NCBI RefSeq assembly: GCF_002797495.1
Contig: NZ_PGEZ01000001.1
Location: 2,728,001 to 2,792,000, forward strand
Direction: 5' to 3'
Source: Mumia flava
Lineage (GTDB): Bacteria; Actinomycetota; Actinomycetes; Propionibacteriales; Nocardioidaceae
DNA length: 64,000 nt
A program made the translations under genes and the position numbers. Of this stretch, positions 4,174 through 23,300 are shown piece by piece. Position 1 is the stretch's first letter. Each line of letters begins with the position of its first letter. The notes under the pieces were generated by a model that saw only the letters and a program-made list of their open reading frames with translations, was not told the DNA's origin and made no database searches.

Positions 4174-4220
4174 GATCAGATGAAAGAGTTTGGTTAGGCA
4201 AGGCTAATCAACATCTGATC
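4174..4220. repeat. Perfect 9-bp inverted repeat flanking an iron box
   Basis: GATCAGATG at 4174-4182 and its exact reverse complement CATCTGATC at 4212-4220 bracket the iron box at 4193-4211. Each arm is itself nearly palindromic (CATCnGATG type). The same word occurs beside the two other iron boxes in this window. It looks like an operator for a second DNA-binding protein, but none is identified. Confidence 0.6.
4193..4211 (+). promoter_or_regulatory. DtxR/IdeR-type iron box upstream of the glycosyltransferase operon
   Basis: Reading from 4194, TTAGGCAAGGCTAATCAA matches the actinobacterial iron-box consensus TTAGGTTAGGCTAACCTAA at 14 of 19 positions. It lies about 50 bases before the ATG at 4263 and about 125 bases from the start of the divergent regulator. 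By analogy with IdeR/DtxR/DmdR sites it should repress transcription when iron is plentiful. Its position favours control of the glycosyltransferase operon. Confidence 0.7.
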
Positions 4221-5096: not shown

Positions 5097-5106
5097 CGAG
5101 GCCCTC

Positions 5107-7389: not shown

Positions 7390-8699
7390 GCGTCCTGCCC
7401 GGGTCGCGGATGGAGCGCAACGCAGGCGTCCTGCTGCTCTCGTCGGCCGCGACGAGCATCCTCGGGTTCGCCTACTGGTACGCGGCGGAGCGGACGTTCG
7501 CGACGGCGGAGGTCGGTCGTGCCTCGACCGTCGTCACCACCGCGACGATGCTCGGCACGCTGGCGTGCCTGTCGCTCGGCGGGATGTACGAGCGGTTCCT
7601 CCCTGCGTCCGGCCACCGCGTGCGCGCGCTGATCGCCGGCGGGATCGGCGCGGTCGGGCTCAGCGGGATGCTGATCGGTTGCGTGTTCGCGGCGATCGAC
7701 CCGTCGCCGGCGATGTTCGACGCGTCGGTCGAGCGCGTCGCCTTCCCTGCGGTCGTCGTCGCCCTCGCGCTGTTCGCGCTCGCCGACCCGATCGCGGTGG
7801 GGCTGCGCGAGCCGCGTGCGGTCGCGGCGAAGAACGTCGGGTTCGGTGTCGCGAAGCTCGCCGTTCTCGTCCCGCTCGCCGGTACGGGTGCGGTCGCGAT
7901 CTACGGATCCTGGACGCTGCTCGCGCTGGTCGCCACGACGACGACGCTGGTGTGGGCGCTGGCCCGCGGGAGCCGCGCCGTCGCCGCCGCGGACCCCACC
8001 CTGCCGAGGGTGCGGCTGCTGCTGTCGCACCACGGCGCCGTGCTCGCGCTCATGCTGGTCGGCACGGTGACGCCGCTGTGCCTGCCGCTGATCGTGCTCG
8101 ACCGCCTGGGTCCCGAGAGCGCGGCCCACTTCAACGTCGCCCAGGTGATCGTGGTGGCGGTGACGATGATGATCGCGGCGTGCGGCTCCTCGTTCATCGC
8201 CGAGGCGGCCCAGCCCGGGGCCGACCCCCGAGCGGCGCTGCGGCAGCTCGCCCGGATGCTGGTCGCGCTCGGGCTGGCCGGCGCCGCAGGGCTGGCACTG
8301 ATCGGACCCCTCATGCTGCGGCTGGTCGGCGTCGACTACGCCGCGGAGTCCGGCCGCTACCTGCAGGTCGCCGGAGCGGCCCTGCTGCCGCAGACCTTCG
8401 TCGGGGCGTACGCGTTGCTGTGCCGGCTGGAGAGCCGGCTGCGTCTGCTCGTCGCCGTCCAGGTGGTGGCCGTCGTCGGCATCATCGGGGGCACGCTGCT
8501 GCTCGTCGACGCGCTCGGGGTCACCGGCGTCGGTGTGGCGATGCTGGCCACCGAGTCGGCGTGCGCCGCGATCGTCGCCGTCCCGACGATGCTCGCCGTG
8601 CGACGGATCACCGGGGCCTCGCGCGACGACGCACCCGGCCGGCATCCCGCCGTCGGTGCGGGGTCCACCGTCCCGGCCGATCGGAGGGCGCTGCGATGA
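7386..8699 (+). CDS. Polysaccharide flippase-like membrane protein (MOP/Wzx type)
   Basis: A 437-residue multi-pass membrane protein with about twelve hydrophobic segments, the size and spacing of Wzx-type exporters of lipid-linked oligosaccharides. It begins MERNAGVLLLSSAATSILGF (from residue 9), the usual first helix of these flippases, and contains FNVAQVIV and YLQVAGAALLPQTF in the membrane core. It starts at GTG 7386 overlapping the previous stop by four bases. The protein family is variable in sequence, so the assignment rests on topology, size and neighbours (four glycosyltransferase genes). It would move the product of these transferases across the membrane. Confidence 0.75.
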   Translation: MSVLPGSRMERNAGVLLLSSAATSILGFAYWYAAERTFATAEVGRASTVVTTATMLGTLACLSLGGMYERFLPASGHRVRALIAGGIGAVGLSGMLIGCVFAAIDPSPAMFDASVERVAFPAVVVALALFALADPIAVGLREPRAVAAKNVGFGVAKLAVLVPLAGTGAVAIYGSWTLLALVATTTTLVWALARGSRAVAAADPTLPRVRLLLSHHGAVLALMLVGTVTPLCLPLIVLDRLGPESAAHFNVAQVIVVAVTMMIAACGSSFIAEAAQPGADPRAALRQLARMLVALGLAGAAGLALIGPLMLRLVGVDYAAESGRYLQVAGAALLPQTFVGAYALLCRLESRLRLLVAVQVVAVVGIIGGTLLLVDALGVTGVGVAMLATESACAAIVAVPTMLAVRRITGASRDDAPGRHPAVGAGSTVPADRRALR

Positions 8700-10807
8700 C
8701 GACCGTGCTCGACCGCAGCGACGTCGCGTCGGTCCCGCCGGCAGCGGCGGCCGGTCCGGTGGTCGCAGCCGCGGCGTGCGCCGTGGTCGGGGCGGTCGCG
8801 TCCGCCTCGGTCGCCGTCGGTCGGCCCGTCGGGCCGGCTGTCCTCGGGCTGTACCTGCTCGTCCCCGGCGTCCTGCTGCTGAGCCTGCGCCCGGCCGCGG
8901 CGTCGCGCTACGCCCTGCTCGTCCCCGCGGTCGGCCTGGCGACCACGATCGCGTGCGGCAGCCTCGCCCTGTGGCTGGGTCTGTGGGCCCCGGGCCTCCT
9001 GACCGTCCTCGCCGGCGCCGCGGTGGTGGTGGTGAGCGTACGGACGGTGCTGCGTCGCCGCTCGACGCTGATCGGCTGGGGAGGGGGTCGTCGACGCCTG
9101 CTCCGAGGGCCGGTCCGTCCGAGCCGGACCACGTCCGCGGTGGCGGTCTGCCTGGCCGTCGCGCTCGCCGCCTGGGTGGTCGCGGTCCTGGGTGCGCTCG
9201 ACGCCGACGCCCGTGCGGGCGGGCTGCTCGCGGTCGTCGGGTGGCCGTTCGGCATCGCTGTGGCCGCCGGTCTGGTCGGCTTCGGGCTCGCGCTGCGCGC
9301 TGGACGGACCGGGCTCGCCTCACTGGCGGCCCTCGTGCTCCTCGTGGTCGTGCGCGGCACCGGCACGCTCGCGTCGAGCGTCCCCGTCTACCACTGGACC
9401 TACAAGCACCTCGGCGTCGTCGACCTGATGCAGAGCCGCGGCTCGGTGCTGGGCGGGCTGGACGTGTACCAGGCGTGGCCGGGCTTCTTCGCCGGGGCGG
9501 CGTGGTTGTCGGACGCCTCGGGCATCGCGGCGATCGACCTGGCGCGGTGGACGACCCCGGCGCTCGAGCTCGCGCTCGGGCTCGCGGTCGCCGCGCTGGC
9601 GCGGGCGCTCGGCGGGTCACGGGACGTGGCCGTGGCCGCGGGTCTGGTCGCCGTCGTGGTGAACTGGGTCGGGCAGGACTACTTCGCGCCGCAGGCGGTC
9701 GCGATCGTGCTCGCGACCGCGGTGCTCGCGCTCGTCGTGGACCGTGAGGCTCCGCGCTCGGCGGCCTGGGCGGCGCTCGGGCTGTACGCGGCGCTGGTCG
9801 TGTCCCACCAGCTGACCCCGTACTGGGTGCTCGGGGCGACCCTGCTCCTCACCCTCGTGCTCCGCCGACGGTGGTGGCTGCCCGCCGCGATGGCCGCCCT
9901 CGCGCTCGGCTACCTCGCCCTGCACTACGACGCGGTCGCGCACTACGGGATCTTCAGCGGGTTCGGCGACGCGGTCCAGAATGCACGGACGACGATCGGC
10001 GTCGATCCGTCCGACCAGCAACGTCTCGACTCCACGGTGGCCCGCGCAGCCGCCCTCGCCGTCTGGGGATCGGCTGCCGCGGTGCTCGCCGTCGCGGCAC
10101 TGCGGCGCCGCGAGGGCTGGGTGATCACCGCGATCGTCGCGTTCAGCCCGTTCGCGCTGCTGCTCGCCCAGAGCTACGGGGGCGAGGCGGTCCTGCGGGT
10201 GATGCTGTTCACCGTGCCCGGCTGCGCGGTCGCGATCGCCGGCGCGGTCGTCGCTCTGCTGCGGGCGTCCTGGGTGCGCTTCACGGCAGGGGTCGTGTGG
10301 CTGGGTCTGCTGGCGGCCGTGTGCGCCCAGGCGACGTACGACTCGTGGTTCCTCGACCGGGTCTCGGAGGCGGAGGTCCGGACGTCGCGCCTGCTCCTCG
10401 ACGAGGTGCCGGGCGACGCGTACCTGTCGGCGGCGGTCCCGCGGTGGCCCGACCGCGCCACCGGCGCGTACGCGTGGCGGCTGGAGGACCAGTGGGACTT
10501 CGACCGCTCCGCCTACGCCATCGAGGCGGCCGACCTCGACTTCACCTCGGTCGTCGACGCCGTGCTGCTGGAGCGGTCGATCCGGAGCAGCGCCGCGCTT
10601 CCGACGTATCTGATCTTCTCCGACGCGATGGACGCCTACGCCGACTACTACGGCCTCTACCCTCCGGGGACGCTCGACCGGATGCGCGACCTGCTGGTGA
10701 CGCGCTCCGGGTGGGACGTCGTCCTCGCCGAGGACGGCGTGCTGGTGCTCCGCTACCTTCCGGGCGGGCTCACCGACACGCCTGCTGCGACGTGGCGGGC
10801 ACGATGA
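8696..10807 (+). CDS. Large multi-pass membrane protein, possible GT-C glycosyltransferase or polymerase
   Basis: A 703-residue integral membrane protein with about 13 to 15 hydrophobic helices, then a soluble C-terminal part (about 560-703). After the first helices, an extracytoplasmic-looking loop reads VPVYHWTYKHLGVVDLMQSR and GGLDVYQAWPGFF, and a later one has an FSGFGDAVQNAR stretch. Acidic and aromatic residues in loops are typical of GT-C enzymes that use polyprenyl-phosphate sugars, but I see no diagnostic motif. ATG 8696 overlaps the flippase stop. It may polymerise or decorate the exported glycan. Function is unassigned. Confidence 0.7.
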   Translation: MTTVLDRSDVASVPPAAAAGPVVAAAACAVVGAVASASVAVGRPVGPAVLGLYLLVPGVLLLSLRPAAASRYALLVPAVGLATTIACGSLALWLGLWAPGLLTVLAGAAVVVVSVRTVLRRRSTLIGWGGGRRRLLRGPVRPSRTTSAVAVCLAVALAAWVVAVLGALDADARAGGLLAVVGWPFGIAVAAGLVGFGLALRAGRTGLASLAALVLLVVVRGTGTLASSVPVYHWTYKHLGVVDLMQSRGSVLGGLDVYQAWPGFFAGAAWLSDASGIAAIDLARWTTPALELALGLAVAALARALGGSRDVAVAAGLVAVVVNWVGQDYFAPQAVAIVLATAVLALVVDREAPRSAAWAALGLYAALVVSHQLTPYWVLGATLLLTLVLRRRWWLPAAMAALALGYLALHYDAVAHYGIFSGFGDAVQNARTTIGVDPSDQQRLDSTVARAAALAVWGSAAAVLAVAALRRREGWVITAIVAFSPFALLLAQSYGGEAVLRVMLFTVPGCAVAIAGAVVALLRASWVRFTAGVVWLGLLAAVCAQATYDSWFLDRVSEAEVRTSRLLLDEVPGDAYLSAAVPRWPDRATGAYAWRLEDQWDFDRSAYAIEAADLDFTSVVDAVLLERSIRSSAALPTYLIFSDAMDAYADYYGLYPPGTLDRMRDLLVTRSGWDVVLAEDGVLVLRYLPGGLTDTPAATWRAR

Positions 10808-11784
10808 CCGCTGAGCGCGTCAGCGTCGTGGTGCCGGTCTACCGCGTCGAGGCGTACGTGGCCGACTGCGTCCGCTCGATCGCGGCCCAGACGCGCAGGG
10901 TCGACGAGCTGGTCCTCGTCGACGACCGCGGCGGTGATGCCTCGGTGCGGATCGCCGTGGAGGCAGCGCGCCGTGGCGGGCTGGACCCGACGATCGTCCG
11001 GATGCCGGCGAACGCGGGGCCGGGTGCCGCGCGCAACGCCGGGCTCGCGGCGTCGGGCGGGAGCCTCGTCTGGTTCTGCGACGCCGACGACGTCGCCGCC
11101 CCACGGCTCGTGGAGCGGCTGGTGCGGGCCCTGGAGGCGTCCGGTGCGGACTCCGCGACGTGCCGGACCCTGCGCTTCGGCGGCGGCGCTCCGGAGGGTC
11201 CGGTCGAGGAGCCGCTCGGTGCGGACGTCCTGACCGGGCGTGCGTTCGCGATCGCGCTCCTCGACGGACGCGTGCGTGGATATCCGGCGAACCGGATCTT
11301 TCGCCGCACCGGTCTCGGTGACGCGCCGTTCCCGGACGGAGTGGCGTACGAGGACCTCGGGACCGTCCTGCGTCTGGCGCTCGCGTCGGAGCGGGTCGCG
11401 GTCGTCGACGAGCCGCTCTACCGGTACCGCCGCAGCGCGGGGTCGCTCTCGAGCCGGTTCGGCCCGCACACCTTCGATCTCCTCGCCCAGCTGGCCGACG
11501 TCGAACGGGCGCTGAGCGGGGACCGGGACCCGCAGCTGCGCGCCGCGTTCCGTCGCTACCGCTACCGCGAGGTGATCCTCCCGCTCGCCAACATGGCGCT
11601 GCGGGCGCAGCACGCGGACGGTCGCGCCCCGCTGAACAGCCGGGCCGTGCGCGACGCCCGCGCGCTCGTACGGACCCGCGACCTCGCCGTGCTGGCGGCA
11701 CGAGGATCGTGGCCGCTGGCGCGGGCGGCGGCGGTCCTGCGCACCTCGCCGAGGCTGTACTCCGGTGCATTGAGGGTCCGGTGA
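10804..11784 (+). CDS. Family 2 glycosyltransferase
   Basis: A 326-residue GT2 enzyme. The N-terminus VSVVVPVYRVEAYVADCV, the LVLVDDRGGDAS stretch, GPGAARNAGL and the metal-binding WFCDADD (Asp93, Asp95, Asp96) are all present, as is the later EDLGTVLRL segment that usually supplies the catalytic base region. ATG 10804 overlaps the previous stop (ATGA), and the 3' end overlaps the next gene. The sequence resembles capsule or teichoic-acid transferases of the EpsJ/TagF-N type, but the sugar is unknown. Confidence 0.85.
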   Translation: MTAERVSVVVPVYRVEAYVADCVRSIAAQTRRVDELVLVDDRGGDASVRIAVEAARRGGLDPTIVRMPANAGPGAARNAGLAASGGSLVWFCDADDVAAPRLVERLVRALEASGADSATCRTLRFGGGAPEGPVEEPLGADVLTGRAFAIALLDGRVRGYPANRIFRRTGLGDAPFPDGVAYEDLGTVLRLALASERVAVVDEPLYRYRRSAGSLSSRFGPHTFDLLAQLADVERALSGDRDPQLRAAFRRYRYREVILPLANMALRAQHADGRAPLNSRAVRDARALVRTRDLAVLAARGSWPLARAAAVLRTSPRLYSGALRVR

Positions 11785-12929
11785 GCGCGATGGCCGACCG
11801 GCACCTCGTGCTCGCGATGGACAGCCTGGACGCGCTCGGGGGCGTGCAGCGGGTGCTGCGGCAGGTCGGTGACGGCCTCGCCGACCGCGGGGTCCGGGTC
11901 GAGCTGCTCGGACTGTTCCCCGACGCCGATCCGTACGTGATGCCGAGCCGGGGACTCGCCGACGAGCACGTGCTCGTCGGCGCGTCCCCGACCCTGCTGT
12001 ACTCGCCGACGACACCGTGGCGCCGTGCCAAGCTGCGCGTGCGCGGGCAGGGGGGCGGTGTCGGGGCCTTCGACCGCGGTGTCGTCCGGCTGCGCGACTA
12101 CCTCGCCGCACGGCCGGATGCGGTGGTGGTCGCCACGCAGCTGCGCTCCGCGGAGTACCTCGCCGCCGCCGGGCTGGGTGGCCGACGGTTCGTCGTGCAG
12201 TACCACGACTCGTACGAGGCGGCGCTGCTGCACCGCGACGTCGCGCGGCTGCGCCGGCTCGCCCGGCGCGCGGGCGCGGTCGGACTGCTCAACGAGACCG
12301 ACCGGCGGGCGTTCGAGCGTGCGGGCGTCGCGGGGACGGTCACCCTGCGCAATCCCGTCGACGTCACCGGGCTCGGCCGGGACGGGCTCGTCGAGCGGCG
12401 CGAGCCGGTGATCGTCTCCGGGAGCCGCTACGACGACCAGAAGGCCCTGCACGTGATGATCGAGGCGTGGTCCCGGGTGGCGCCGCGGCATCCGGGGTGG
12501 CGCCTGGACCTCTACGGGGACGGGCCGCTGCGCGGCCCGCTGGCCGGCCAGATCGACCGCCTCGGGGTGCCCGCGCGGCTGTGCGGACCGACCGACGACC
12601 TGCAGGGCGTGTTCGCGCGCAGCTCCGTGCACGCGCTGTCGAGCGTCCACGAGGGCATGGGGCTGGTGATCGCGGAGGCGATGTGCGCGGGCCTGCCGAC
12701 GGTGAGCACCGATGCGGGCGCGGGGGTGCGTGAGCTGGTCCGCCCGGGCCGCAGCGGCGTGCTGGTCGACGTCGGTGACGTCGACGGGTTCGCTGCGGCC
12801 CTCGACGGGCTGGTCGGTTCCCCGGCGCTACGAGCCGAGCTGGGCGCCGGGGCCCGCCGGCTGATCGAGCATCACGACGAGCCTCGCGTGCTGGACGAGT
12901 GGGCGGCGTTCCTCGCCGAGCGGTGGTAG
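11781..12929 (+). CDS. Family 4 glycosyltransferase
   Basis: A 382-residue GT-B fold retaining glycosyltransferase. The N-terminal domain opens LVLAMDSLDALGGVQRVL (the LGGVQR-type acceptor loop of GT4), the hinge follows near 200, and the C-terminal domain has SGSRYDDQKALHVMIEAW, LDLYGDGPLR and the EX7E motif in SVHEGMGLVIAEAM. The GTG at 11781 overlaps the upstream stop; an ATG nine bases later (11790) is a plausible alternative. It is the last gene of the iron-box-preceded polysaccharide operon and converges with the GH16 gene 19 bases away. Confidence 0.85.
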   Translation: MSAMADRHLVLAMDSLDALGGVQRVLRQVGDGLADRGVRVELLGLFPDADPYVMPSRGLADEHVLVGASPTLLYSPTTPWRRAKLRVRGQGGGVGAFDRGVVRLRDYLAARPDAVVVATQLRSAEYLAAAGLGGRRFVVQYHDSYEAALLHRDVARLRRLARRAGAVGLLNETDRRAFERAGVAGTVTLRNPVDVTGLGRDGLVERREPVIVSGSRYDDQKALHVMIEAWSRVAPRHPGWRLDLYGDGPLRGPLAGQIDRLGVPARLCGPTDDLQGVFARSSVHALSSVHEGMGLVIAEAMCAGLPTVSTDAGAGVRELVRPGRSGVLVDVGDVDGFAAALDGLVGSPALRAELGAGARRLIEHHDEPRVLDEWAAFLAERW

Positions 12930-12948: not shown

Positions 12949-13836
12949 TCAGTCGGCGTGCACGCGCACCCAGTCGACCAGCAGCTCGGCCGGGAACACC
13001 GTCGAGTCGTCGGGCGGCCCGGGCCAGCTGCCGCCGACGGCGAGGTTCAGCAGGAGGACCTGCGGGCCGTCGAACGGCCAGCGCTGCTCGCCGCTCAGGT
13101 CCGCGCGCAGGATCCGATGGTGCTCCGTCCCGTCGAGCGTGAAGACCAGCGCGTCGCCGGTCCAGTCCACGCCGTAGACGTGCCACCCGTCGGCCAGCGG
13201 CTCGTCCAGCGTCGTGGTTCCCAGGGCCTGCCAGCGGCCGCCGTCGGCGGGCTCGCGCGAGGCCGCGTGCGCGTTGGCGTGCAGGTCGCGGGTGTCGCCG
13301 AACGTCTCGAGCACGTCGATCTCGCCCGAACGCGGCCAGCCGACCGACTCGTGGTCCTGGCCGAGGGTCCAGAACGCCGACCACAGCCCTTGACCCGCCG
13401 GGACCTTGATCCGTGCCTCGATCCGTCCGTACGTGAACGCCTGCAGCGACTCGATCCGCGCGGAGGTGTACGCGGCCGGGCGTCCTTCGGCGTCGAGGGT
13501 GGGCTCGGCGAGGGCGCGGATCCTCAGGTGGCCCTCGCCGTCCAGCGCGACGTTGTCGGCCTCGGAGGTGTAGGCCTGCAGCTCGTCGTTGCCCCAACCG
13601 CCGGCGCCGGTCAGGATGCGCCAGCGCCCGGTCGACGGCGGTGCCCCGGCATCGCCGTCGAACTCGTCCGACCAGACCAGTGCGGCCGGCTCGTCGGCCC
13701 CGGACGCGGTGCAGCCGACGAGGAGGACCGCGGCGAGCGCCGCCGCCGTCGCCGCGGCGACGCGGGGACGGAGTCGGCCGGAGCGGCGGCGCGTCTGGCG
13801 TGGGTGACCCGGAGCAGGGGCCGGCACGCGGATCAC
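12949..13836 (-). CDS. GH16 endo-glycanase lipoprotein (beta-glucanase-like)
   Basis: A 295-residue exported lipoprotein. The N-terminus is Arg-rich, followed by a hydrophobic stretch and lipobox LVGC with Cys42 as the lipidation site. The mature part is a single GH16 jelly-roll domain (about 53-295) with WSDEFDG near its start and the catalytic EIDVLE motif (Glu172 nucleophile, Asp174, Glu177 acid/base). GH16 enzymes cut beta-1,3 or mixed beta-glucans, agar-type galactans or related polymers; specificity is not readable here. Its GTG start at 13836 overlaps the stop of the chorismate-lyase gene, so it is translationally tied to an aromatic-acid operon, an unexpected partnership. It may trim the polymer made by the adjacent glycosyltransferase operon. 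Confidence 0.85.
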   Translation of the reverse strand: MIRVPAPAPGHPRQTRRRSGRLRPRVAAATAAALAAVLLVGCTASGADEPAALVWSDEFDGDAGAPPSTGRWRILTGAGGWGNDELQAYTSEADNVALDGEGHLRIRALAEPTLDAEGRPAAYTSARIESLQAFTYGRIEARIKVPAGQGLWSAFWTLGQDHESVGWPRSGEIDVLETFGDTRDLHANAHAASREPADGGRWQALGTTTLDEPLADGWHVYGVDWTGDALVFTLDGTEHHRILRADLSGEQRWPFDGPQVLLLNLAVGGSWPGPPDDSTVFPAELLVDWVRVHAD

Positions 13837-14465
13837 CGGCCGAAGACGCACGGGGCGAACCACTCGGTGAACCCGGCCATCGGCCGGCCGTCGTCGCGTC
13901 GCCGCATCAGGTAGCGCCGCGACGGCAGCGGGTCGCCGGCGCGGACCGCGCCCGACAACCGCCGTGCCCGCGGGCCGCACGGACTGAGGCCCCAGCGGCG
14001 CAGCTCGCGATCGACCGTCACGGCGCTCGCGGCGAGCGCGCGTCCGATCGGCTCGTCGCTGGACGCGAGTCGGCGGGCGACGTCGACCGGCAGCCGGTCG
14101 AGCACGATCACGGCGCGCGACGCGCCGTACCGGCGGCCGTCGCGGCCGCGGTGCCCGATCTCGCGTACGAGGAGCGTCTCGTCGCCGTGGGCGTCGAGCA
14201 GGTCGTACGCGTCCCGGACCGCCTCGCCCGTCTGGTGGGCGCTGGTCCCGGTGTACCCGGAGCCCTGGTCTGCGAGCGTCTCCAGGGCGTCGTGGAGCGG
14301 GAGGAGCCAGTGCTCGTCGACGACCACGTCGATCGGGGTCCCGGTGAGGATCTCCAGCGACGTCGTGGTCAGGCCGTCGCCGCGCAGCACCAGCTGCTCG
14401 ACCCGTCCCAGCCCGGGGATGTCGTCGGACGCTCCGCGCGCACTCGGCTCGGTCGACGTCCTCAT
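13833..14465 (-). CDS. Chorismate pyruvate-lyase-like protein (DUF98, Rv2949c type)
   Basis: A 210-residue cytoplasmic protein. From memory it resembles mycobacterial Rv2949c, which converts chorismate to 4-hydroxybenzoate and pyruvate. Corresponding segments here are LTTTSLEILTGTPIDV (32-47), LLVREIGHRGRDG (98-110), VIVLDRLPVDVARRL (119-133) followed by DEPIGRALAAS, and a C-terminal RRYLMRR ... FTEWFAP. ATG 14465 overlaps the stop of the A-T-TE gene (ATGA). In Mycobacterium the lyase gene neighbours fadD22, an A-T enzyme that loads 4-hydroxybenzoate; here it neighbours an A-T-TE enzyme. The predicted product is 4-hydroxybenzoate. The assignment is by remembered motif similarity, so it needs a profile search. 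Confidence 0.7.
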   Translation of the reverse strand: MRTSTEPSARGASDDIPGLGRVEQLVLRGDGLTTTSLEILTGTPIDVVVDEHWLLPLHDALETLADQGSGYTGTSAHQTGEAVRDAYDLLDAHGDETLLVREIGHRGRDGRRYGASRAVIVLDRLPVDVARRLASSDEPIGRALAASAVTVDRELRRWGLSPCGPRARRLSGAVRAGDPLPSRRYLMRRRDDGRPMAGFTEWFAPCVFGR

Positions 14466-17038
14466 CGGGCGTCCTCCCACGTGGCGACGGCGTCGCCGAT
14501 CCGCGCGGCGACGGCGTCGACGTAGGGCGGCTTGAGGATGCCGACGTGGTTCGTCTCCAGCTCGTGCACCCGCCGCGGTCCGACCAGGACCTGGTCCCAC
14601 CAGCGTCGGTCGTCGATGTTCTCGCGAGTCAGGAAGAGCTCGGTGGGGCCGTCCCACGGCCGCGGCCGGTAGCGGTCGGTCAGCCGTAGTCCGTGCTGGA
14701 AGAACACGTCGTTGCGGGTCGGCACGGAGTACGGGTAGAGCCCGGCGCCGAGCAGCTGGAGGCGGGTCCGCCACAGCTCGGTCCGGGTCTGCTCGCGGCC
14801 GCCCGCGATCCTGATCCGGGGGGCGGGGTCGCCGGAGGCGACGGCCGCCGACGGCGGCAGCACGGTGTCGAGCAGCACGAGCAGCGGGGTCGGTCGCCCG
14901 GCGGCCTGGAGGCGGTGGGCGAGCTCGAGCGCGAAGAGCCCGCCGAGCGAGTGGCCGACCAGGACGAGCGGTCCGTCGGGGTGGAGCCGGTCGACGTGTC
15001 GGTGGTAGCGGCGGGCGGCGGCCGCCACGGACCAGTCGGGGATCCCGAGGTTCTCCAGCCCGTGGGTCTGCAGCGCGTGGACGGGCCGGTCGGTGCCGAC
15101 CAGACGGGCGAGGTCGGAGAACAGCAGGCCGGTCCCGCCGGCTCCGGCCAGGCAGACGACCGGCGCCGCGTCGCCCGCCGAGCTCAGGCGGAGCAGGACG
15201 GCCGGGTCGCCGGCCGCCGCGGTGCGCCGGCGACGCCGGGTCCGGGAGGCGACCAGCGCGGCCAGCTCGCGCAGCGTCGCCGCGGAGCCGAGCGCCGAGG
15301 TCGGCAGGTCCACGCCGGTGGCGTCGCGGACCGCGTCGAGCATCTCCTCGACGGCGAGCGAGTCGCCTCCCAGCGCGGTGAAGCTCTCGTCGCGTCCGAC
15401 CTCCTCCAGCTCGAGGCACCGGCACCAGATCCCGGCGAGCAGCGCTTCCCACTGGTCGGCGGGGCCCGGACGGAGGGCGCGTGTCGGCGGCCGGGGCAGC
15501 GCCTGCCGGTCGACCTTGCCGCGCTCGGTGCGGGGGAGGTCGGCGAGCAGGACGACGTGCTGCGGCACCATCCAGGCCGGGAGACGTGCGGCGAGCGCCG
15601 CGCGCAGGGCGGCGACGGACGGCGTACGGCGGTCGGGGTCGGGACAGGCGTAGGCGACGAGTGCGGTCTCGCGGCCGGTTCCGCGGGCCAGGACGACCGC
15701 GTCGACGATCTCGGGCACGTCGCGTAGCACGGCCTCCACCTCGGCCGGCTCGACGAGGTACCCGCGGACCTTGACGGCCGAGTCCGCCCGTCCGCCGAGG
15801 ACCAGCGATCCGTCGGGCAACAGGCGGCCGAGGTCCCCCGAGGTGTACGACGTACGGCCGTCGGGCTCGGTGCCGAAGGCGGCGGCGGTCCGTGCGGGGT
15901 CGCGCCAGTAGCCGCTCGCGAGGTGGTGGGACCGGACCACGATCCGGCCCACGGTGCCCGCCGGTGCGGCTGCGCCGGCCTCGTCGAGCACGAGGACCTC
16001 CTTGCCCTCGACGGGGCGGCCCGCCGGGACGATGCCCTCGGGAGCGGGCTCGTGCGGCTCGAGGTGGAAGAACGTGAGGTGGCCCGTCTCGGACGAGCCG
16101 AGGTAGTTCGAGAACCGTGCCGCGGGCAGCGCCGCGCGGGCTGCCGCGACGTCGCGTCCGTGCACCGGCTCCCCGCAGGTCGAGATCTGCCGGACGGTCG
16201 GGTAGGTCGTGCCGGCGGGCACCGCAGCGGTCAGCGACCGGAGCAGCGAGGGGGTGGCGTGGAGGGTGGTGACCCGCTCGAGCAGGGCGGGCAGGGAGCG
16301 GGTGCCGTGCGTACGCGGGTCGTGACAGACCAGGGTCGCGCCGTTCAGCAGGGTCATGAAGACGACCTCCTGGCCGGCGGCGAACGCGCTCGGGAGCACG
16401 AGCGCGACGCGGTCGCCCGGCACGATGCCCATCGCACGGGCCGACAGCCGTGCGCCGTTCGCGACGGTCGCGTGACTGAGCACGACGCCCTTCGGTGCGC
16501 CGCTCGAGCCGGAGGTGAAGACCAGCGTGGCGGGGTCGTCGGCGTGTCCGACGGCCGTGGGCCACGCGGCCGGGCTCGGGTCCGGTGCCGCCGGGTCGTT
16601 CGGGTGCACCGACAGGATCGTGGGCTCGGAGCCGGCCAGGTCGCGCGCGCGGTGGCGGGTCGCCTCGCTCGCGACGATCTGGGTCGCGGCCGCGCCGTCG
16701 AGGATCGCCCGGAGGCGGTCGTCGGGGAGGGTCGCGTCGAGGGCGACCAGCGGGCGGCCGGACAGCACGACGCCGAGCATCGCCACGATCCCGGCGACAT
16801 CCTGCTCCGCCAGGACGGCGACGGGGCCCTCGCCGCGGGACGTGCGCCGCGCCAGCGCCGTCGCGAGCCGGGCGAGCTGGGCGTAGGTGAGGCGGTGGTC
16901 GTGCGCGACGACGGCGTCGGCAGGGCCGTGGCGCTCCACGACCGCGTGGAGGCGGTCCAGCAGCGGCCGGCGGTCCGGCGAAGCGTCGAGGGGTCCGGCC
17001 GGCGTGGCGACCGCGGAGGGAACGGCGGTGCTGGACAC
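14462..17038 (-). CDS. Free-standing NRPS-like A-T-TE enzyme for a non-amino acid
   Basis: An 858-residue enzyme with adenylation (about 15-520), carrier (about 530-600) and thioesterase (about 615-858) domains and no condensation domain. Motifs: FTSGSSGAPKG (174-184), YTSGDLG (398-404), catalytic Lys508 in RGKVD, phosphopantetheine site LGGDSL with Ser560, GHSLGG with Ser697, Asp724 and His831. In the substrate pocket the Asp that normally binds an alpha-amino group is replaced by Ala (SAFAAGQEVVF), and the usual YGPTE is YLGSSETG. A substrate lacking an amino group, such as an aryl acid, is therefore likely. GTG 17038 is preceded by GGGAGA. An iron box lies 35 bases upstream, and the chorismate-lyase gene follows directly. 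Confidence 0.85.
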   Translation of the reverse strand: MSSTAVPSAVATPAGPLDASPDRRPLLDRLHAVVERHGPADAVVAHDHRLTYAQLARLATALARRTSRGEGPVAVLAEQDVAGIVAMLGVVLSGRPLVALDATLPDDRLRAILDGAAATQIVASEATRHRARDLAGSEPTILSVHPNDPAAPDPSPAAWPTAVGHADDPATLVFTSGSSGAPKGVVLSHATVANGARLSARAMGIVPGDRVALVLPSAFAAGQEVVFMTLLNGATLVCHDPRTHGTRSLPALLERVTTLHATPSLLRSLTAAVPAGTTYPTVRQISTCGEPVHGRDVAAARAALPAARFSNYLGSSETGHLTFFHLEPHEPAPEGIVPAGRPVEGKEVLVLDEAGAAAPAGTVGRIVVRSHHLASGYWRDPARTAAAFGTEPDGRTSYTSGDLGRLLPDGSLVLGGRADSAVKVRGYLVEPAEVEAVLRDVPEIVDAVVLARGTGRETALVAYACPDPDRRTPSVAALRAALAARLPAWMVPQHVVLLADLPRTERGKVDRQALPRPPTRALRPGPADQWEALLAGIWCRCLELEEVGRDESFTALGGDSLAVEEMLDAVRDATGVDLPTSALGSAATLRELAALVASRTRRRRRTAAAGDPAVLLRLSSAGDAAPVVCLAGAGGTGLLFSDLARLVGTDRPVHALQTHGLENLGIPDWSVAAAARRYHRHVDRLHPDGPLVLVGHSLGGLFALELAHRLQAAGRPTPLLVLLDTVLPPSAAVASGDPAPRIRIAGGREQTRTELWRTRLQLLGAGLYPYSVPTRNDVFFQHGLRLTDRYRPRPWDGPTELFLTRENIDDRRWWDQVLVGPRRVHELETNHVGILKPPYVDAVAARIGDAVATWEDAR

Positions 17039-17072
17039 GTGGGGCTCTCCCGATGGCTGAGACAGATCGAAG

Positions 17073-17091
17073 TTACCTTAGCCTACCCTTC
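17073..17091. promoter_or_regulatory. DtxR/IdeR-type iron box between divergent genes
   Basis: TTACCTTAGCCTACCCTTC matches the inverted iron-box consensus TTAGGTTAGCCTAACCTAA at 14 of 19 positions. It sits 35 bases from the start of the A-T-TE operon on one side and about 58 bases from the secreted-protein gene on the other, so one repressor dimer pair could silence both under iron-replete conditions. Confidence 0.7.
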
Positions 17092-17101
17092 ATCAGATGT
17101 T
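17088..17101. promoter_or_regulatory. Shared palindromic motif next to the iron box
   Basis: CTTCATCAGATGTT, containing the odd-centred palindrome CATCAGATG. The identical 14 bases recur at 28938-28951, again directly after an iron box, and near-copies flank the box at 4193. A candidate second operator; the protein that binds it is not known. Confidence 0.5.
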
Positions 17102-17148: not shown

Positions 17149-19659
17149 TTGGAAGTCATGACACGCACCAGCAACTCCCTCCGCGTACGGCCGCGAGGCC
17201 TCCGCGTGACGGTGGCCGGGGCACTGGCGGGCGCGCTCGCCGGCGGCGCCCTGGTCGCGGCGGCGCCCGCGACCGCCGCCACCGTCGACGTCGGCGGCAC
17301 CTCCTACGACGTCACCAGTGCGGTCGCCGGGAAGTACCACTACCAAGCCGCCTACTCCGAGACCAACGACCTCCTCTGGGTCACCAGCACCGCGCACGCG
17401 TTCGTCGACGGCGTCCCGCGGGCGGCCGAGTCCGAGCTGAACGCGCTCGACCCCGACACGCTCGAGGTCCGCCGCACGATCGAGGCCCGTGAGCTCGGCG
17501 CCGGGACCGCGAGCGAGCGGGTCGAGGGGATGTACGGCGTCGCCGTCGACGACGAGAACGACACCGTGTGGACGTCGACCACCCGCGAGGACGCCGTCGT
17601 CGTCTTCGACCAGGACAGCGGCGACCGCGTCGCCACCGTCGAGGCGGGGCACAGCCGTGACATCGCGATCGATCCGTACCGCGACGTGGCCTACGTCTCC
17701 GACCCGCTCGGCGGCACGATCACGAAGATCTCGACCACGACGTACGACGTGGTCGAGACGATCAGCGGGGTGACCGCCGGCTTCTCGCCGATGTCGCTCG
17801 ACCTCGTCGTCGACGAGGACACGGCGCTGCTCTACACGGTCAACCTGAACAACGGGGCGCTGGTCGAGCTCGACTCGCTCGCGAGGCAGACCCGCGTGGT
17901 GTCCCAGACCGGAGGACAGCGCGCCTCCGGCATCGCCGTCGACCTCGACCGCGACCGCGCCTACGTCGCGAGCCAGGACTCGCGCGACCTGCGCACCGTC
18001 GAGCTGTCGACCGGCACCGTCCTGGAGACGGTCGACGCCGGCGCGGCTGCACTGAACGTCGCCGTCGACCACGACGCCGGGCTGGTCTTCACGGCCGTCT
18101 TCGGCGGCAGCCAGGTCCTCGTGACCGACGCCGACACCGGCGCGCGGGTCGGCGCGATCGACGTCGGCTACGCCCCCAACGACGTGGTGGCCGTGGGCGA
18201 TGTGATCTACGCCGTCGACCGTGAGGACAGCGTGGCCGCGGACGGCAACCGCTCCCGGGTCTGGCGGATCGCACCGACCGGCTCCGGCGACCCGGATCCC
18301 GACCCGGATCCGGACCCGGACCCCGAGCCGGCCGAGGCCAGCGTCAGCGTCGCGGCGGACGACGCCGAGCTCGGCGGCACCGTCCGGCTGACGGGCCGGA
18401 ACTGGCTGGTCCGCGACGGCTCCAGCGGGTCGCGGATCGCCGTGAAGCTGAACGACGGGGCGTACTCCCACGTCGCGGGCAGCGGCAACCTGAGCATCTG
18501 GCAGACGGTCGACGCGGCGGACGACGGCTCGTTCTCCGTCGACGTGCCGCTGCCCGACGGCACCGACGCCGGTGCTCGGGGAAGCGCTCCGGCCGCGGAA
18601 CCGGGCACGTACTCCCTGCGGCTGCTGTCCGGCTCGCTCAAGACCGGCGACACCACCCGCTCGGTCAAGACGGCCGACTTCACGGTGGCCGCCGCGGAGG
18701 ACGAGGCCGCCGAGCCGACGGTGACGCTCGACGCGGCCGACGCCCAGGTCGGTGGCACCGTGCGTCTGTCGGGTGAGAACTGGCTGGTCCGGGACGGCTC
18801 CAGCGGGTCCACGATCGCCGTGAAGATCGACGACGGTGCGTACTCCCACACCTCCGGGAGCGGCAACCGGACGATCTGGCAGACGATCGAGGTCGGGGAC
18901 GACGGCTCGTTCTCGTTCGACGTCGCGCTCCCCGACGGATCGACCTCGGGGGCCCGCGGCAGCACGCCCGCCTTCGGGGCCGGCACGCACTCGCTGCGGC
19001 TGCTCACGGGCTCGCTGAAGCCGGGCGACGAGGTTCGCTCGGTGAAGACGGCCGACTTCGCGGTCGCCGCGGCGCCCCGCAACCCGGTCGCCACCACCAT
19101 CGGTGTCTCGGGCGCCAAGAGCGTGCGCCTCGGCAAGCGCGGCGCCGTACGGGTCGCCGTGCGCGGCGACGACCCGACCGGGACCGTGCGGGTCCTCGGC
19201 GCCCGCAACGGCCGCAGCACCACCCTCGGGTCGGCGAAGCTCGGCGGCAACGGCAAGGCGACCGTGCGGTACGCCGCGCGAGGCCCGCTCGGCTACCAGC
19301 GTCTCCGGGTCGCCTACGCAGGGGACGCCGACAACCGCGCGTCGTCGAGCGGGTGGCGGGTCCGGGTCTTCGGCGCCTCCAAGGTCGCGACGAAGGTGAA
19401 GAAGAAGGCGACGCGCAAGCGGCGCGGCAAGGTCAAGGTCGTCGTCAAGGGCCAGGCCCAGCGACCGGTCGGGCGCATCAGCGTGTCCGTCAAGGGCAAG
19501 CGCGGCACGGTGCGCGCGAGCCTGAAGCGGGGCAAGAAGGTCGTGAGGCTGCCGCGCCTCAAGCCCCGCAAGAAGGCGTACAAGGTCGTCGTGCGCTACC
19601 ACGGAAGCGTGAAGCACACGAGCGCGAAGCAGGTGCTGCGCCTCAAGGTGCGGCGCTGA
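17149..19659 (+). CDS. Secreted beta-propeller protein with tandem repeat domains and basic tail
   Basis: An 836-residue exported protein. It has a signal peptide to about residue 43 (PATAA site), a YncE-like beta-propeller (about 45-375, recurrent AVD-x-D and AYVS blades), an Asp-Pro linker (381-393), two about 120-residue repeats (396-515 and 522-641) both containing NWLVRDGSSGS, an Ig-like region (about 645-735), and a Lys/Arg-rich end. No LPXTG anchor or C-terminal membrane helix is seen. TTG 17149 fits AAAGGA four bases upstream; ATG 17158 is the alternative and has poorer spacing. It is divergent from the A-T-TE operon and shares its iron box, so it is probably made under iron starvation. 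Possible roles are siderophore, heme or polymer binding; none is demonstrated by sequence. Confidence 0.82.
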   Translation: MEVMTRTSNSLRVRPRGLRVTVAGALAGALAGGALVAAAPATAATVDVGGTSYDVTSAVAGKYHYQAAYSETNDLLWVTSTAHAFVDGVPRAAESELNALDPDTLEVRRTIEARELGAGTASERVEGMYGVAVDDENDTVWTSTTREDAVVVFDQDSGDRVATVEAGHSRDIAIDPYRDVAYVSDPLGGTITKISTTTYDVVETISGVTAGFSPMSLDLVVDEDTALLYTVNLNNGALVELDSLARQTRVVSQTGGQRASGIAVDLDRDRAYVASQDSRDLRTVELSTGTVLETVDAGAAALNVAVDHDAGLVFTAVFGGSQVLVTDADTGARVGAIDVGYAPNDVVAVGDVIYAVDREDSVAADGNRSRVWRIAPTGSGDPDPDPDPDPDPEPAEASVSVAADDAELGGTVRLTGRNWLVRDGSSGSRIAVKLNDGAYSHVAGSGNLSIWQTVDAADDGSFSVDVPLPDGTDAGARGSAPAAEPGTYSLRLLSGSLKTGDTTRSVKTADFTVAAAEDEAAEPTVTLDAADAQVGGTVRLSGENWLVRDGSSGSTIAVKIDDGAYSHTSGSGNRTIWQTIEVGDDGSFSFDVALPDGSTSGARGSTPAFGAGTHSLRLLTGSLKPGDEVRSVKTADFAVAAAPRNPVATTIGVSGAKSVRLGKRGAVRVAVRGDDPTGTVRVLGARNGRSTTLGSAKLGGNGKATVRYAARGPLGYQRLRVAYAGDADNRASSSGWRVRVFGASKVATKVKKKATRKRRGKVKVVVKGQAQRPVGRISVSVKGKRGTVRASLKRGKKVVRLPRLKPRKKAYKVVVRYHGSVKHTSAKQVLRLKVRR

Positions 19660-19674: not shown

Positions 19675-20328
19675 CTACGCGGCGGGTGGTCGGGCCTCGG
19701 GCTCGGCCACCCGCCGCGCCGTCGCCGCGACCAGCGCGCCGACGGCGTCGAGGGACTCGACGGACGTGTCCCGGACGCAGCGGGCCCACTGTCCGTCGCC
19801 GCCGACGACCGTGACCTCGCCGAGCTCGTCGATCGTCATCGCGCCCGCCTTCACGAGGGCCTCCTTGCGGACCCAGATCATCCCGAAGCGCCTCGCGGGA
19901 TCGTCCGCGCCGCTCACCCATGCCCGCTCCTGCGCGGTCAGGGCCCGGGCCGGGAGCGCCCGACCGCGCAGCCGACCCAGATCCTCCACGTCGATGCCGC
20001 AGGCCTCGTCGGCGGCGAGCGCGGCCACGTGGGTGCGGGTGTGGGCCAGGCTCACGTGCAGCCGGGACTCGCCGTCGATCCGGGGGCGACCGTGCGGGCC
20101 GCCGCAGGTCGCGCAGCACTGGATGACGACCAGGCGCCGGGGGTCGCGTCCGAGAGCCTCGCCGGCGACCTGGCGGACGAGCACGTGCGCGGCCGCGAAC
20201 GCGTCCCGGTCGTCGGCGCGCCGCAGGGCCGACCAGCGGTCCCGCTCGAGCGGCGTCAGCCAGTCGGGAGCGTCCGGAGCCGTGGCCAGGACCGAGGCCG
20301 TGCTCGCGACGCGGCTGCTCAGCTCCAA
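19675..20328 (-). CDS. 4'-phosphopantetheinyl transferase (Sfp/EntD type)
   Basis: A 217-residue enzyme that primes carrier domains with phosphopantetheine from CoA. It has the family signatures: HVSLAHT (91-97), GIDVED with Asp113 and Glu115 for Mg2+, and WVRKEALVK (152-160) with Glu156. The start is a TTG at 20328 inside the end of the synthetase gene, supported by GAGGAG eight bases upstream; no ATG or GTG is suitably placed. As last gene of the operon it would activate the carrier domains of the EntB-like and EntF-like proteins and perhaps that of the separate A-T-TE enzyme. Confidence 0.92.
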   Translation of the reverse strand: MELSSRVASTASVLATAPDAPDWLTPLERDRWSALRRADDRDAFAAAHVLVRQVAGEALGRDPRRLVVIQCCATCGGPHGRPRIDGESRLHVSLAHTRTHVAALAADEACGIDVEDLGRLRGRALPARALTAQERAWVSGADDPARRFGMIWVRKEALVKAGAMTIDELGEVTVVGGDGQWARCVRDTSVESLDAVGALVAATARRVAEPEARPPAA

Positions 20329-23300
20329 CGCTCGATCTCCTCGGTGACGATCGCGCCCACCCTCGCGACGTGCGGTTCGCGGACCAGGTCGGGGTGCGTG
20401 GCCTCGAGCCTACGGACGTCGACCGTGCCGTCGACGTACCGCTCCCAGGCCTTGGCGCTCAACCAGTGCTCCTCCCGCGGTGCCGCTGCGGTGACGTGCA
20501 CGAGGTCGTGGTGCAGGACCTCGTGCCGGGCGTTGCGGACCATCGCCGCGCACGCGTGCACGCTGCGGATGCTCGCCTCCAGCGTCTGCGGCGGCAGCGC
20601 CGCCAGCGCGCTCGCACCCTCGCGGAGGATCTCCACGGTGCGCGCGCGGTCGAGACTCTCGTCGGCGCGCTCCTCCAGACCGGCGATCCGCAGCACACCG
20701 CGGAGGGCCTCGGTCTCGGTCGGCGCACCGAGGTGCTGCCACTGGTCCGAGGGGTAGGCGTCCAGCAGGACGACGGCACCGACCTCGCCACCGCTCGCGA
20801 GGGCGAGCCGCGCCACCTCGTGCGCGGCCATCCCCCCGACGGACCAGCCCACCAGATGGAGAGGGCCGTCGCCGGCGCGCGACCGGATGTCGGAGAGCAT
20901 CAGTCGCGCCCAGGAGGTCAGGCTCTCCGGCCAGCCGCCTTCCTCGTCCTGAGCGCCGTCCAGGCCGGGTGCCTGCAGAGCGTGCACCGGGAGGTCCGGT
21001 GGCAGGTGGCGCAGCAGACTCGTGTAGCACCAGCCGAGGCCGCCTGCCGGCGGGAGCGCGATCAGAGGTGGGCCGGACCGCCCGGGTCGCAGCGTGATCA
21101 TCCGGGCGAGGTCGTGACGCCGGTCCGTGCCGCGCGCGCGGTCCGGGGTCGCGGTGACGAGGCGAGCGAGCGCGGAGGGGCGTGGGTTCTCGAACAGGTC
21201 GGACAGCCGCAGCGTCGCTCCGGTGACGTCCTCGATCTCGCCGAGCAGCCGCAAGGCGAGCAGCGAGGTGGTGCCCAGCGCGAAGAGGTCGTCGTCGGGG
21301 CCCACGCTCGTCTCGAGCAGGCGACCGGCTGCACGGCACACCTCCTCGGTGGTCCGGTCCTGCGGCACGGCCGTCGGTCGGGGGACCGGTGCGCGGGCGG
21401 CGGTCGAGGCGAGAGCGCGTCGGTCGGTCTTGCCGCTGGCGGTGGTCGGGACCGCCGCCAGCGGCACGTAGCGGGACGGGCGCATCGCGTCGGTGAGACT
21501 CGCCCGCGCCGCACGGGTGAGCGCCCGCACGGCGCGCTCGTCGGACGTGGCGTGGTCGTCGGAGGTCGTGCCGGCCGGGGGCGGTCCGCCCGCCGCGACG
21601 ACGTCAGCGGGCCGCGTCGGCACGTAGCAGGCGACGAGCTCGTCGGCGCCCGCAGCGCGGGGGACCACGACGACGGCGACGTCGTCGACCTCCGCGACGG
21701 CACCGAGCACCTGCTCGACCTCGCCGAGCTCGATCCGCTGACCCGCGATCTTCACTTGGTCGTCGAGCCGGCCGAGGTACTCGAGCGTCCCGTCGTGACG
21801 CCAGCGAGCGCGGTCGCCGGTGCGGTACAGGCGGCTGCCGCCCGCGAGCGGATGGCGCACGAACGCCGCGGCCGTCGCGTCCGGCCGACCGGCGTATCCG
21901 TCGGCGAGCTGCACGCCGGCCAGGCACAGCTCACCGGCCATCCCGATCCCGAGGGGACGACCGGCCGGGTCGAGGACGTAGGCACGGGTGTTCCAGACCG
22001 GCCGTCCGATGGGGACCAGGGTGCGGTCCCGGCGCGGGTCGGTGTCGTGCACGGTGACGTCGACGGCTGCCTCGGTCGGTCCGTAGAGGTTGACCGGAGC
22101 GGTCCCGAAGACGGTCGCCGCGCCCTCGACGAGGTCCGGCGTCAGCGCCTCCCCGCTGCAGACGACGTGCCGCACCCGAGCGCCCTGCAGCCGTTCGCGG
22201 GCCCGCCGGTCGGCGAGGAGCACCCGCAGCATCGACGGCACGAAGTGCAGCACGTCGACCCGCTCCCTGACGACGACGTCCGCGAGCGCACGCGGGTCGC
22301 GGTGCGCACCCGGCTCGGCCACCACGACTCCGGCCCTGACCTGCAGCGGCCAGAACAGCTCCCAGACGGAGACGTCGAACGAGATCGGGGTCTTGTGCAG
22401 GACCCGGTCGCCCGGCGCCAGCGGGAGATGGTGCTGCATCCAGGCCAACCGGTTGTCGATCGCGCGGTGGCTCACGACGACGCCCTTCGGCCGTCCGGTC
22501 GATCCGGAGGTGAACAGGACGTACGCGGGGTCGTCGGGGCCGGCGCGACGGCCGGGCGGACGCCCGCGGCGCTCCACCGAGCGCGGCTCCTCCGCGTACG
22601 GCGGGCCTGCGATGTCGATCCGGTGCACGCCGGACGGCAGCGCGCCGTCGGACCCGTCGGAGGTGACGACCACGGAGATCCCGGCGTCCTCGACCATCGC
22701 GGCGATCCGCGCGGGCGGCAGACCCGGTTCGAGGGGGCAGAAGGCGGCGCCGGAGCGGACCACCCCGTGCACGGCGGCGAACAGCGCGGGCGAGCGCTCG
22801 AGCGCGACCCCGACCACGGCGCCGGGGTGGGCGGCCCCGGCCTGCTCGATCGCGTCCGCCACCCGGTCGGCCTCGGCGGACAGCTCGGCGTACGTGAGCG
22901 TCCGTCCGCGCCAGACCAGCGCGACGGCGTCGGGACCGGCGCCGACGGCTTCGTCGAACGCCTCCGCGAGCGTGCGGGGTGCGACCGGGTGGGCGGTGTC
23001 GTTGAACGTCTCGACGACCAGGTGGTGCTCCTGCGGCGGCAGCAGCGGGAGGTCGACGATCCTGGTCTCGGGCGCAGCCGCGGCGAACCGCCCGAGCCAC
23101 GCGGCGATCCGGTGGGCGTGGGCCTCGGTGCTCGCCCGGTCGTACAGACGTGGGTTGGCGTCGATCTCGAGCGCCACCGGGCCCCGCCCCAGGACGCCGC
23201 GCAGGCACCAGGTCATGTCCTCGACCGGGCCCGCGGTGACGTTGCGGATGCGTCCGCGGGCGTCGCCGAGGTCGAGGACCGGCGCGAACGGCACGAGGTT

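Follow-up and report, generated by a model that had tools for sequence, protein, structure and literature searches.

The locus raises the question of what an operon with a candidate iron box makes from a chorismate-lyase-like protein (CL), an adenylation-carrier-thioesterase enzyme (A-T-TE), and a GH16 lipoprotein, and what the acceptor of its product might be. The window (the whole stretch of DNA analysed, 64,000 nucleotides) places this operon between genes for glycan assembly and genes for siderophore synthesis. Its features are as follows.

378..3375, plus strand: ferric-siderophore uptake genes, namely a FecCD permease, an ABC ATPase, and an enterochelin esterase (Pfam)
4189..4212, no strand: predicted iron box of two overlapping matches (15/19 and 14/19) before the glycan operon, with a GntR gene on its opposite side
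4263..5096, plus strand: GT2a glycosyltransferase, polyprenyl-phosphate hexosyltransferase-like (PF00535, 82 bits)
5146..7389, plus strand: double GT2 glycosyltransferase (Pfam; AglG-like by NCBIfam, below cut-off)
7386..8699, plus strand: multi-spanning membrane protein with 8 hydropathy segments, possibly a flippase (role guessed)
8696..10807, plus strand: multi-spanning membrane protein with 13 hydropathy segments, possibly a polymerase or GT-C (role guessed)
10804..11784, plus strand: GT2b glycosyltransferase (PF00535; NCBIfam below cut-offs)
11790..12929, plus strand: GT4 glycosyltransferase, convergent with GH16 (PF13692/PF00534; NCBIfam below cut-offs)
12949..13836, minus strand: GH16 secreted lipoprotein, endoglycanase type (PF00722, 78 bits; lipobox-like LVGC; EIDVLE motif)
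13833..14465, minus strand: CL, a chorismate pyruvate-lyase-like member of the PF01947/UbiC family and predicted to be a 4-hydroxybenzoate synthase (PF01947, hhalign)
14462..17038, minus strand: A-T-TE with adenylation, carrier, and thioesterase domains, putative aryl-acid activation (Pfam; no Asp235)
17073..17091, no strand: predicted iron box of the DtxR/IdeR type, with the A-T-TE operon on one side and the divergent gene for the beta-propeller on the other (14/19 to consensus)
17149..19659, plus strand: secreted YncE-like beta-propeller with an Ig-like domain, transcribed away from A-T-TE on the other side of the same box (YncE, Big_3_5)
19675..28912, minus strand: 2,3-dihydroxybenzoate (DHB) siderophore cluster with PPTase, EntF, EntB, EntE, EntC, and EntA (Pfam/NCBIfam)

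The glycan locus (4263-12929) comprises four glycosyltransferase genes and two multi-spanning membrane proteins, neither of which has a significant Pfam family; homologues of the smaller one (7386..8699) lie in related glycan loci, and GT2a is 72% identical to the copy in Streptomyces G785. The propeller gene has an uncertain start (17149-17206), and its product scores 56 bits on the YncE model, far under the cut-off of 400, and above the cut-off for Big_3_5.

The conserved pair and its enzymes

The GH16, CL, and A-T-TE genes all lie on the minus strand with overlaps of four bases each (ATGA and GTGA), and their coordinates confirm the gene order given in a first-pass annotation of the window. 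The notion of a three-gene set stands in part: the genes for A-T(-TE), with or without the TE domain, and CL are kept together in 11 genomes, but GH16 belongs to the operon only in the window. The genomes are the window's own, Streptomyces sp. NBRC 109706 (G785), Spirilliplanes yamanashiensis (G786), Nakamurella leprariae (G789), Glaciihabitans tibetensis (G790), three Micropruina MAGs (G787, G791, and G360), an uncultured actinobacterium MAG (G788), G116, and G881. The pair is adjacent and co-directional in 10 of the 11; in G881 the two genes are about 13 kb apart on opposite strands. A fixed place for GH16 in the operon was rejected, since among the 10 other genomes with the pair it is only close by, in 5 of them (G785, G787, G360, G789, and G116, which with the window make 6/11). 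The conserved unit is A-T(-TE) plus CL, often joined by PobA (4-hydroxybenzoate 3-hydroxylase).

CL had been described as a DUF98-type lyase, and this family assignment is borne out, with one reservation at the level of the individual sequence. PF01947 is matched by 14 of 15 CL family members at E ≤ 0.01, and its cut-off of 22 bits is passed by the copies of G360 (23.4 bits) and G116 (31.6 bits), but the window copy falls just below it in the Pfam scan (21.8 bits), and a PF01947 search of the whole window genome does not recover CL at E ≤ 0.001. A profile of 15 CL relatives finds the solved protein 2nwi, labelled “hypothetical protein”, with an E of 1.2e-11, and E. coli UbiC aligns with the CL profile at an hhalign probability of 82 and an E of 1e-5. 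The catalytic residues of UbiC, which we take to be R76 and E155 (numbered without the first Met, with their catalytic roles likewise assumed), align with R101 and E201 of CL, and both are invariant in 15/15 sequences. CL is accordingly placed in the chorismate-lyase/DUF98 family, and activity on chorismate is predicted. Trees of CL and A-T-TE resolve few forks (4/12 and 3/7 inner branches well supported, respectively) and carry no weight in the argument.

The A-T-TE gene has a GTG start, and Pfam finds AMP-binding (189 bits), PP-binding (39 bits), and Thioesterase (65 bits) domains in its product and no condensation domain. Position 235 (GrsA numbering), presumably the site of the amino-binding Asp, is Ala in the window A domain and aligns with an Asp in the A domain of the EntF encoded in the window. 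The substitution pointed out in the first-pass annotation is general, since position 235 is A, M, S, or G in 11/11 A domains (the window and ten others) and never Asp. The carrier Ser is present in 11/11 A-T(-TE) sequences and the TE Ser/Asp/His triad in 9/11, the exceptions being the Nakamurella enzyme, which is A-T only, and that of G881, for which the fetched sequence ends early. This 11-sequence comparison leaves out two incomplete copies, from G791, which aligns as two pieces, and from G788, where the gene is cut by a contig end. The missing Asp235 and the neighbouring genes predict an aryl-acid-activating enzyme, and the hydroxybenzoate-type genes next door make 4-hydroxybenzoates, often 3-substituted, the predicted substrates.

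Distribution, iron boxes, and glycan context

CL is sparsely distributed. It turns up in 4 of 391 whole genomes of the order (the window's, G116, and G360, plus G223 as a weak match), in 8 of 396 genomes of a phylum sample (the window's and seven weak matches), and, with a profile, in 10 of 394 genomes of a class sample. The latter are the window's, G881, four strong matches in genus g290 (strong matches include G998, G1047, and G1033), and four weak ones (G540, G1031, G950, and G935). A contig scan with a three-sequence CL alignment yields 12 loci, one of which is the G360 contig; the same type of scan with a single CL sequence finds no relative, and a plasmid collection holds no CL match. 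Among 382 genomes of the order, 5 have an A-T-TE match at E ≤ 1e-90 (the window's, G360, G116, G012, and G354), and neither protein occurs in the other sampled members of the window's genus (four genomes). Each partner also occurs without the other: G012 and G354 carry A-T-TE with no CL in the region, G354 also having no iron box nearby, and four loci (L023-L026; three from Frankia/Protofrankia and one from Thermoleophilia) carry CL with no A-T-TE in the fetched stretch. Genes in the relatives' fetched regions were called with a codon-usage script.

Iron boxes were scored throughout against the palindromic 19-base sequence that we take to be the DtxR/IdeR consensus. Only two places in the window reach at least 14/19, the box at 17073 and the overlapping pair at 4189/4194. 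The former begins 35 bases from the A-T-TE start, where the first-pass annotation had put it, and its score is reached by 0/300 shuffles (first-order chains, as for all shuffles) of its 460-base stretch. Of the 10 testable two-gene genomes, 7 have a box of at least 14/19 at the A-T(-TE) gene (the window's, G785, G786, G787, G789, G791, and G360; the truncated G788 gene is outside the count), which upholds the earlier suggestion of iron-box control. Among these seven the window box scores lowest; those of the six relatives score 15-17/19, with 0/300 shuffles each. No box at this threshold occurs at A-T(-TE) in G116, G790, or G881, and the best sites of G116 and Glaciihabitans (11/19) are equalled by 59/300 and 85/300 shuffles, respectively. 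The Nakamurella box is 128 bases away from the start of the divergent propeller gene and 365 bases away from the called start of A-T.

Further boxes mark the surrounding loci. They precede GT2a in the window, G785, G787, and G360, fall between GH16 and a large membrane protein in G785, and separate the epimerase(-GH16) from the GT2 genes in G787 and G360. G012 has boxes before GH16, before GT2a (which reads as two pieces there), before an aldolase gene, and in the interval from Fes to PobA. Shuffling each of the 11 regions three times gives 0 sites, the G012 region being outside this control. A stricter pattern finds 5 sites in the window's genome and 0 in its control, and the window's own weaker boxes are not among these. 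Iron regulation of the module is predicted from the conserved boxes.

The earlier suspicion that a polymer is involved gains strength from the glycan context: GT2a or the membrane protein is present in the fetched region of 7/11 genomes (the window's, G785, G787, G788, G360, G116, and, with the membrane protein only, Nakamurella), a count that, like all co-occurrence counts here, ignores kinship. The membrane protein occurs in 8 other genomes, and its surroundings were examined in 7 (G287 left out). One 60 kb region of G785 holds homologues of all the window glycan genes, GH16, Fes, EntA/B/C/E, an EntF-like gene, and the cassette. In Spirilliplanes, a gene for a sugar transferase (PF02397) lies near the pair in place of GT2a and the membrane protein, and G012 has a glycan locus with iron boxes and a GH16 that is 56% identical to that of the window. 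Propeller homologues adjoin A-T(-TE) in 5 other genomes, one as a fragment only, and those of G785 and Nakamurella have WxL wall-binding matches above cut-off. Candidate acyl-handling genes lie close by in some relatives: two Micropruina (G787 and G360) have GDSL acylhydrolases inside their glycan loci, and in Nakamurella GH16 and CL flank a gene for an esterase of the BD-FAE family.

Substrate clues

A PobA homologue directly follows CL in 5/11 genomes (G785, G786, G787, G791, and G360), the copies being about 47-87% identical to that of G360 (G360 itself aside); in G788 and G789 a homologue with 41-45% identity to the G360 copy lies 6-6.5 kb off. Model scans cover the G360 and G012 copies. 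On NF006091, the subfamily model for 4-hydroxybenzoate 3-monooxygenase, the former reaches 467 bits (cut-off 351), and on a stricter equivalog it reaches 406 bits (cut-off 539). G881 has a 26% PobA match, and no PobA lies near the pair in the window, Glaciihabitans, or G116. The only strong PobA match of the window's genome sits among pca-catabolic-like genes, as read from their translations, with no iron box, and was rejected as a part of the system.

G012, which is absent from the CL-positive genomes of the order and has no CL-profile match in its 55 kb region, appears to reach the same substrate class by another route. Its A-T-TE gene starts 85 bases past a gene whose product resembles 3-dehydroquinate synthase II (473 vs 375 bits for subfamily NF002625; 408 vs 750 for BagC/FevH). 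Before that gene comes one for an aldolase of the DhnA type (272 vs 241 bits for NF005556; 259 vs 500 for BagB/FevI), and genes for a PobA-like protein (437 vs 351 bits) and an N-acetyltransferase are nearby. Because the G012 genes miss the cut-offs specific to BagB and BagC, 3-amino-4-hydroxybenzoate is put forward there only as a probable product. Unrelated routes to 4-hydroxybenzoates, CL/PobA and that of G012, thus seem to converge on one type of activating enzyme, and this convergence is the best evidence on substrate class. The 4-hydroxybenzoate substrate proposed in the first-pass annotation survives as a class, with the amendment that the PobA and G012 genes make a 3-substituted form common. 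The comparison points to a 3-substituted 4-hydroxybenzoate as a common substrate, with the window having no dedicated PobA.

Possible functions and relation to known systems

The reading placed ahead of siderophore tailoring and of a free small molecule is the aroylation of an exported glycan, or of its precursor, during iron starvation; it is held tentatively, at somewhat less than an even chance. A DtxR/IdeR-type repressor would leave the boxes and the operons would be transcribed, as the conserved boxes suggest. CL would convert chorismate to 4-hydroxybenzoate, judging from its family and catalytic residues, and PobA would extend this to 3,4-dihydroxybenzoate in 5 to 7 of the 11 relatives. 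A 3-amino-4-hydroxybenzoate-type pathway would replace CL in G012, and the window may rely on unmodified 4-hydroxybenzoate or on the catabolic PobA of its genome. The A domain, given the domain content and the absent Asp235, would adenylate the acid and load it onto the carrier domain. Going by the gene neighbourhood only, the TE would then move the aroyl group onto a hydroxyl of a sugar precursor, and the aroylated precursor would be polymerised and exported, with GH16 trimming the polymer outside. Versions bearing a catechol or an aminophenol would act as iron chelators or as crosslinkers of the matrix. A glycan is the predicted acceptor of the aroyl group; against this counts that a TE inside the cell would require a cytoplasmic acceptor. 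Recurrence in distant relatives suggests an undescribed phenol- or catechol-decorated glycan under iron scarcity. More doubtful is a broader proposal, that iron-starved Actinobacteria make a catechol- or aminophenol-decorated surface polysaccharide as a matrix-bound iron trap, through CL/PobA (or 3-amino-4-hydroxybenzoate) and an A-T-TE aroyltransferase, in coordination with a soluble catecholate siderophore.

The module may instead supply a second aryl cap or an aryl ester to the neighbouring 2,3-DHB siderophore, which is judged unlikely. The cassette adjoins DHB-siderophore genes in the window and G785, the G012 A-T-TE shares 55 kb with EntA/EntC-like genes, and iron boxes are common to both systems. 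A DHB-AMP ligase match above 490 bits is present in 7 of the 10 two-gene genomes searched (G881 left out), although the curated cut-off of 724 is passed by G785 and G786 only (window, 621). Matches are weak (141-178 bits) in G116, G790, and G791, the ligase is on a different draft contig in Spirilliplanes, Nakamurella, G787, G360, and G788, and A-T-TE has no condensation domain. Similarly improbable is the release by the TE of a phenolic ester, amide, or dimer that acts as an exported chelator or signal unrelated to the glycan. Glaciihabitans, whose fetched 35 kb hold the pair but lack GT2a, the membrane protein, PobA, GH16, and any iron box, and G116, which has an MFS transporter gene upstream, fit such a product, and bagremycin and ferroverdin provide a precedent in that esters of 3-amino-4-hydroxybenzoate can be iron-related small molecules (PMC6692506). 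The bagremycin ester enzyme FevW, however, is described there as an adenylating ligase similar to the phenylacetate-CoA ligase family rather than as an A-T-TE (PMC6692506), and the recurrent glycan, GH16, and propeller neighbours, several behind the same type of box, speak against a free product.

The least probable account, and a distinctly improbable one, is that iron-regulated genes have simply gathered and that glycan locus and aryl module serve separate functions. Related glycan loci in four same-family genomes (G216, G155, G159, and G210) have neither iron boxes nor the module, so the glycan is independent of the module there, and Glaciihabitans shows the converse; kinship, again, is not factored into the counts. 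Yet the same combination is found in the window, Streptomyces, and Micropruina with differing gene orders, which argues against coincidence. If glycan aroylation is correct, aromatic and potentially iron-chelating glycans would be made on purpose, NRPS-type chemistry would be tied to exopolysaccharide assembly, and iron acquisition would have a second, surface-bound arm. Chorismate lyase would gain a new role in organisms that lack ubiquinone, and an enzyme would become available for placing catechols on polymers. Cultured strains with the locus, e.g., Streptomyces sp. NBRC 109706, make the idea directly testable.

Among the matches listed in searches of the open-licence literature, none describes the A-T-TE/CL/GH16 set, and the systems nearest to it share only parts. 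Mycobacterial Rv2949c and FadD22 serve p-hydroxybenzoate formation and phenolic glycolipid synthesis. The likeness lies in a chorismate lyase of the same Pfam family beside an aryl-acid adenylating/carrier enzyme, and the Nakamurella version is likewise A-T only. A FadD22-type loader, however, would be an A-T protein that has no TE and lies next to a PKS, whereas the window enzyme has a TE, an iron box, and glycan, GH16, and DHB-siderophore neighbours, and Pfam finds no PKS among the scanned window genes, which span about 1-32.6 kb of the window. E. coli UbiC is homologous to CL, with its catalytic Arg/Glu aligned, but distant, as the hhalign probability indicates; UbiC serves ubiquinone, and Actinobacteria use menaquinone. 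Fungal and bacterial A-T-TE synthetases of the atromentin and ralfuranone type dimerise arylpyruvates. They resemble the window enzyme, by description only, in domain order and in a substrate that is not an amino acid, but the neighbouring genes here would supply benzoates. The enterobactin-type EntABCEF set is also present in the window; unlike the A-T-TE module, it constitutes a separate aryl acid route from isochorismate with a separate NRPS.

Bagremycin/ferroverdin and ahbamycin are the counterparts of the G012 arrangement, in which an aldolase and a synthase gene, over the subfamily and under the BagB/BagC cut-offs, stand beside A-T-TE. The activating enzymes differ: as described, those systems use adenylating ligases, the ahbamycin one being the acyl-CoA ligase AhbL2 (PMC10179220), and the word “thioesterase” is absent from both main texts (PMC6692506, PMC10179220), whereas the enzyme here is an A-T-TE.

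Relatives of the lyase and the adenylation enzyme

The adenylation-carrier-thioesterase (A-T-TE) enzyme and the chorismate-lyase-like protein recur in differing company.

L082:12600-17315 (genome G012): A-T-TE and 3-amino-4-hydroxybenzoate-type genes, side by side, with iron boxes
L048:3974-6669, on the minus strand in Nakamurella: TE-less A-T protein, immediately preceding the lyase homologue

The G012 locus also carries a PobA-like gene and an N-acetyltransferase gene, and its 3-amino-4-hydroxybenzoate-type genes seem to represent a second predicted aryl-acid source feeding the A-T-TE family. Inspection of the three frames of the Nakamurella stretch revealed no TE. Frankia/Protofrankia genomes (L023, L024, L025) encode a lyase homologue that retains the invariant residues, with no A-T-TE found near it in the fetched stretches.

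Siderophore cluster and glycan-type genes

Window 20319-24344: EntF, whose A domain carries the residues D V W H V S L V D K
Window 29085-32594: GT2-CDP-glycerol glycerophosphotransferase domain fusion, teichoic-acid-like, adjoining the siderophore cluster

Because the EntF A domain agrees at 8/10 residues with the serine code, and a TE is present, a 2,3-dihydroxybenzoate-serine siderophore is suggested as the cluster product. A related glycan locus, comprising GT2a, double GT2, GH16, and a membrane-protein homologue, occurs in four same-family genomes (L072-L075; G216, G155, G159, and G210), where these loci lack iron boxes.

YncE-like propeller

Window 17149-19659: secreted beta-propeller protein, YncE-like (YncE model 56 bits, under cut-off)

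E. coli YncE is regulated by iron and has no known function; the window protein may represent a parallel to it.
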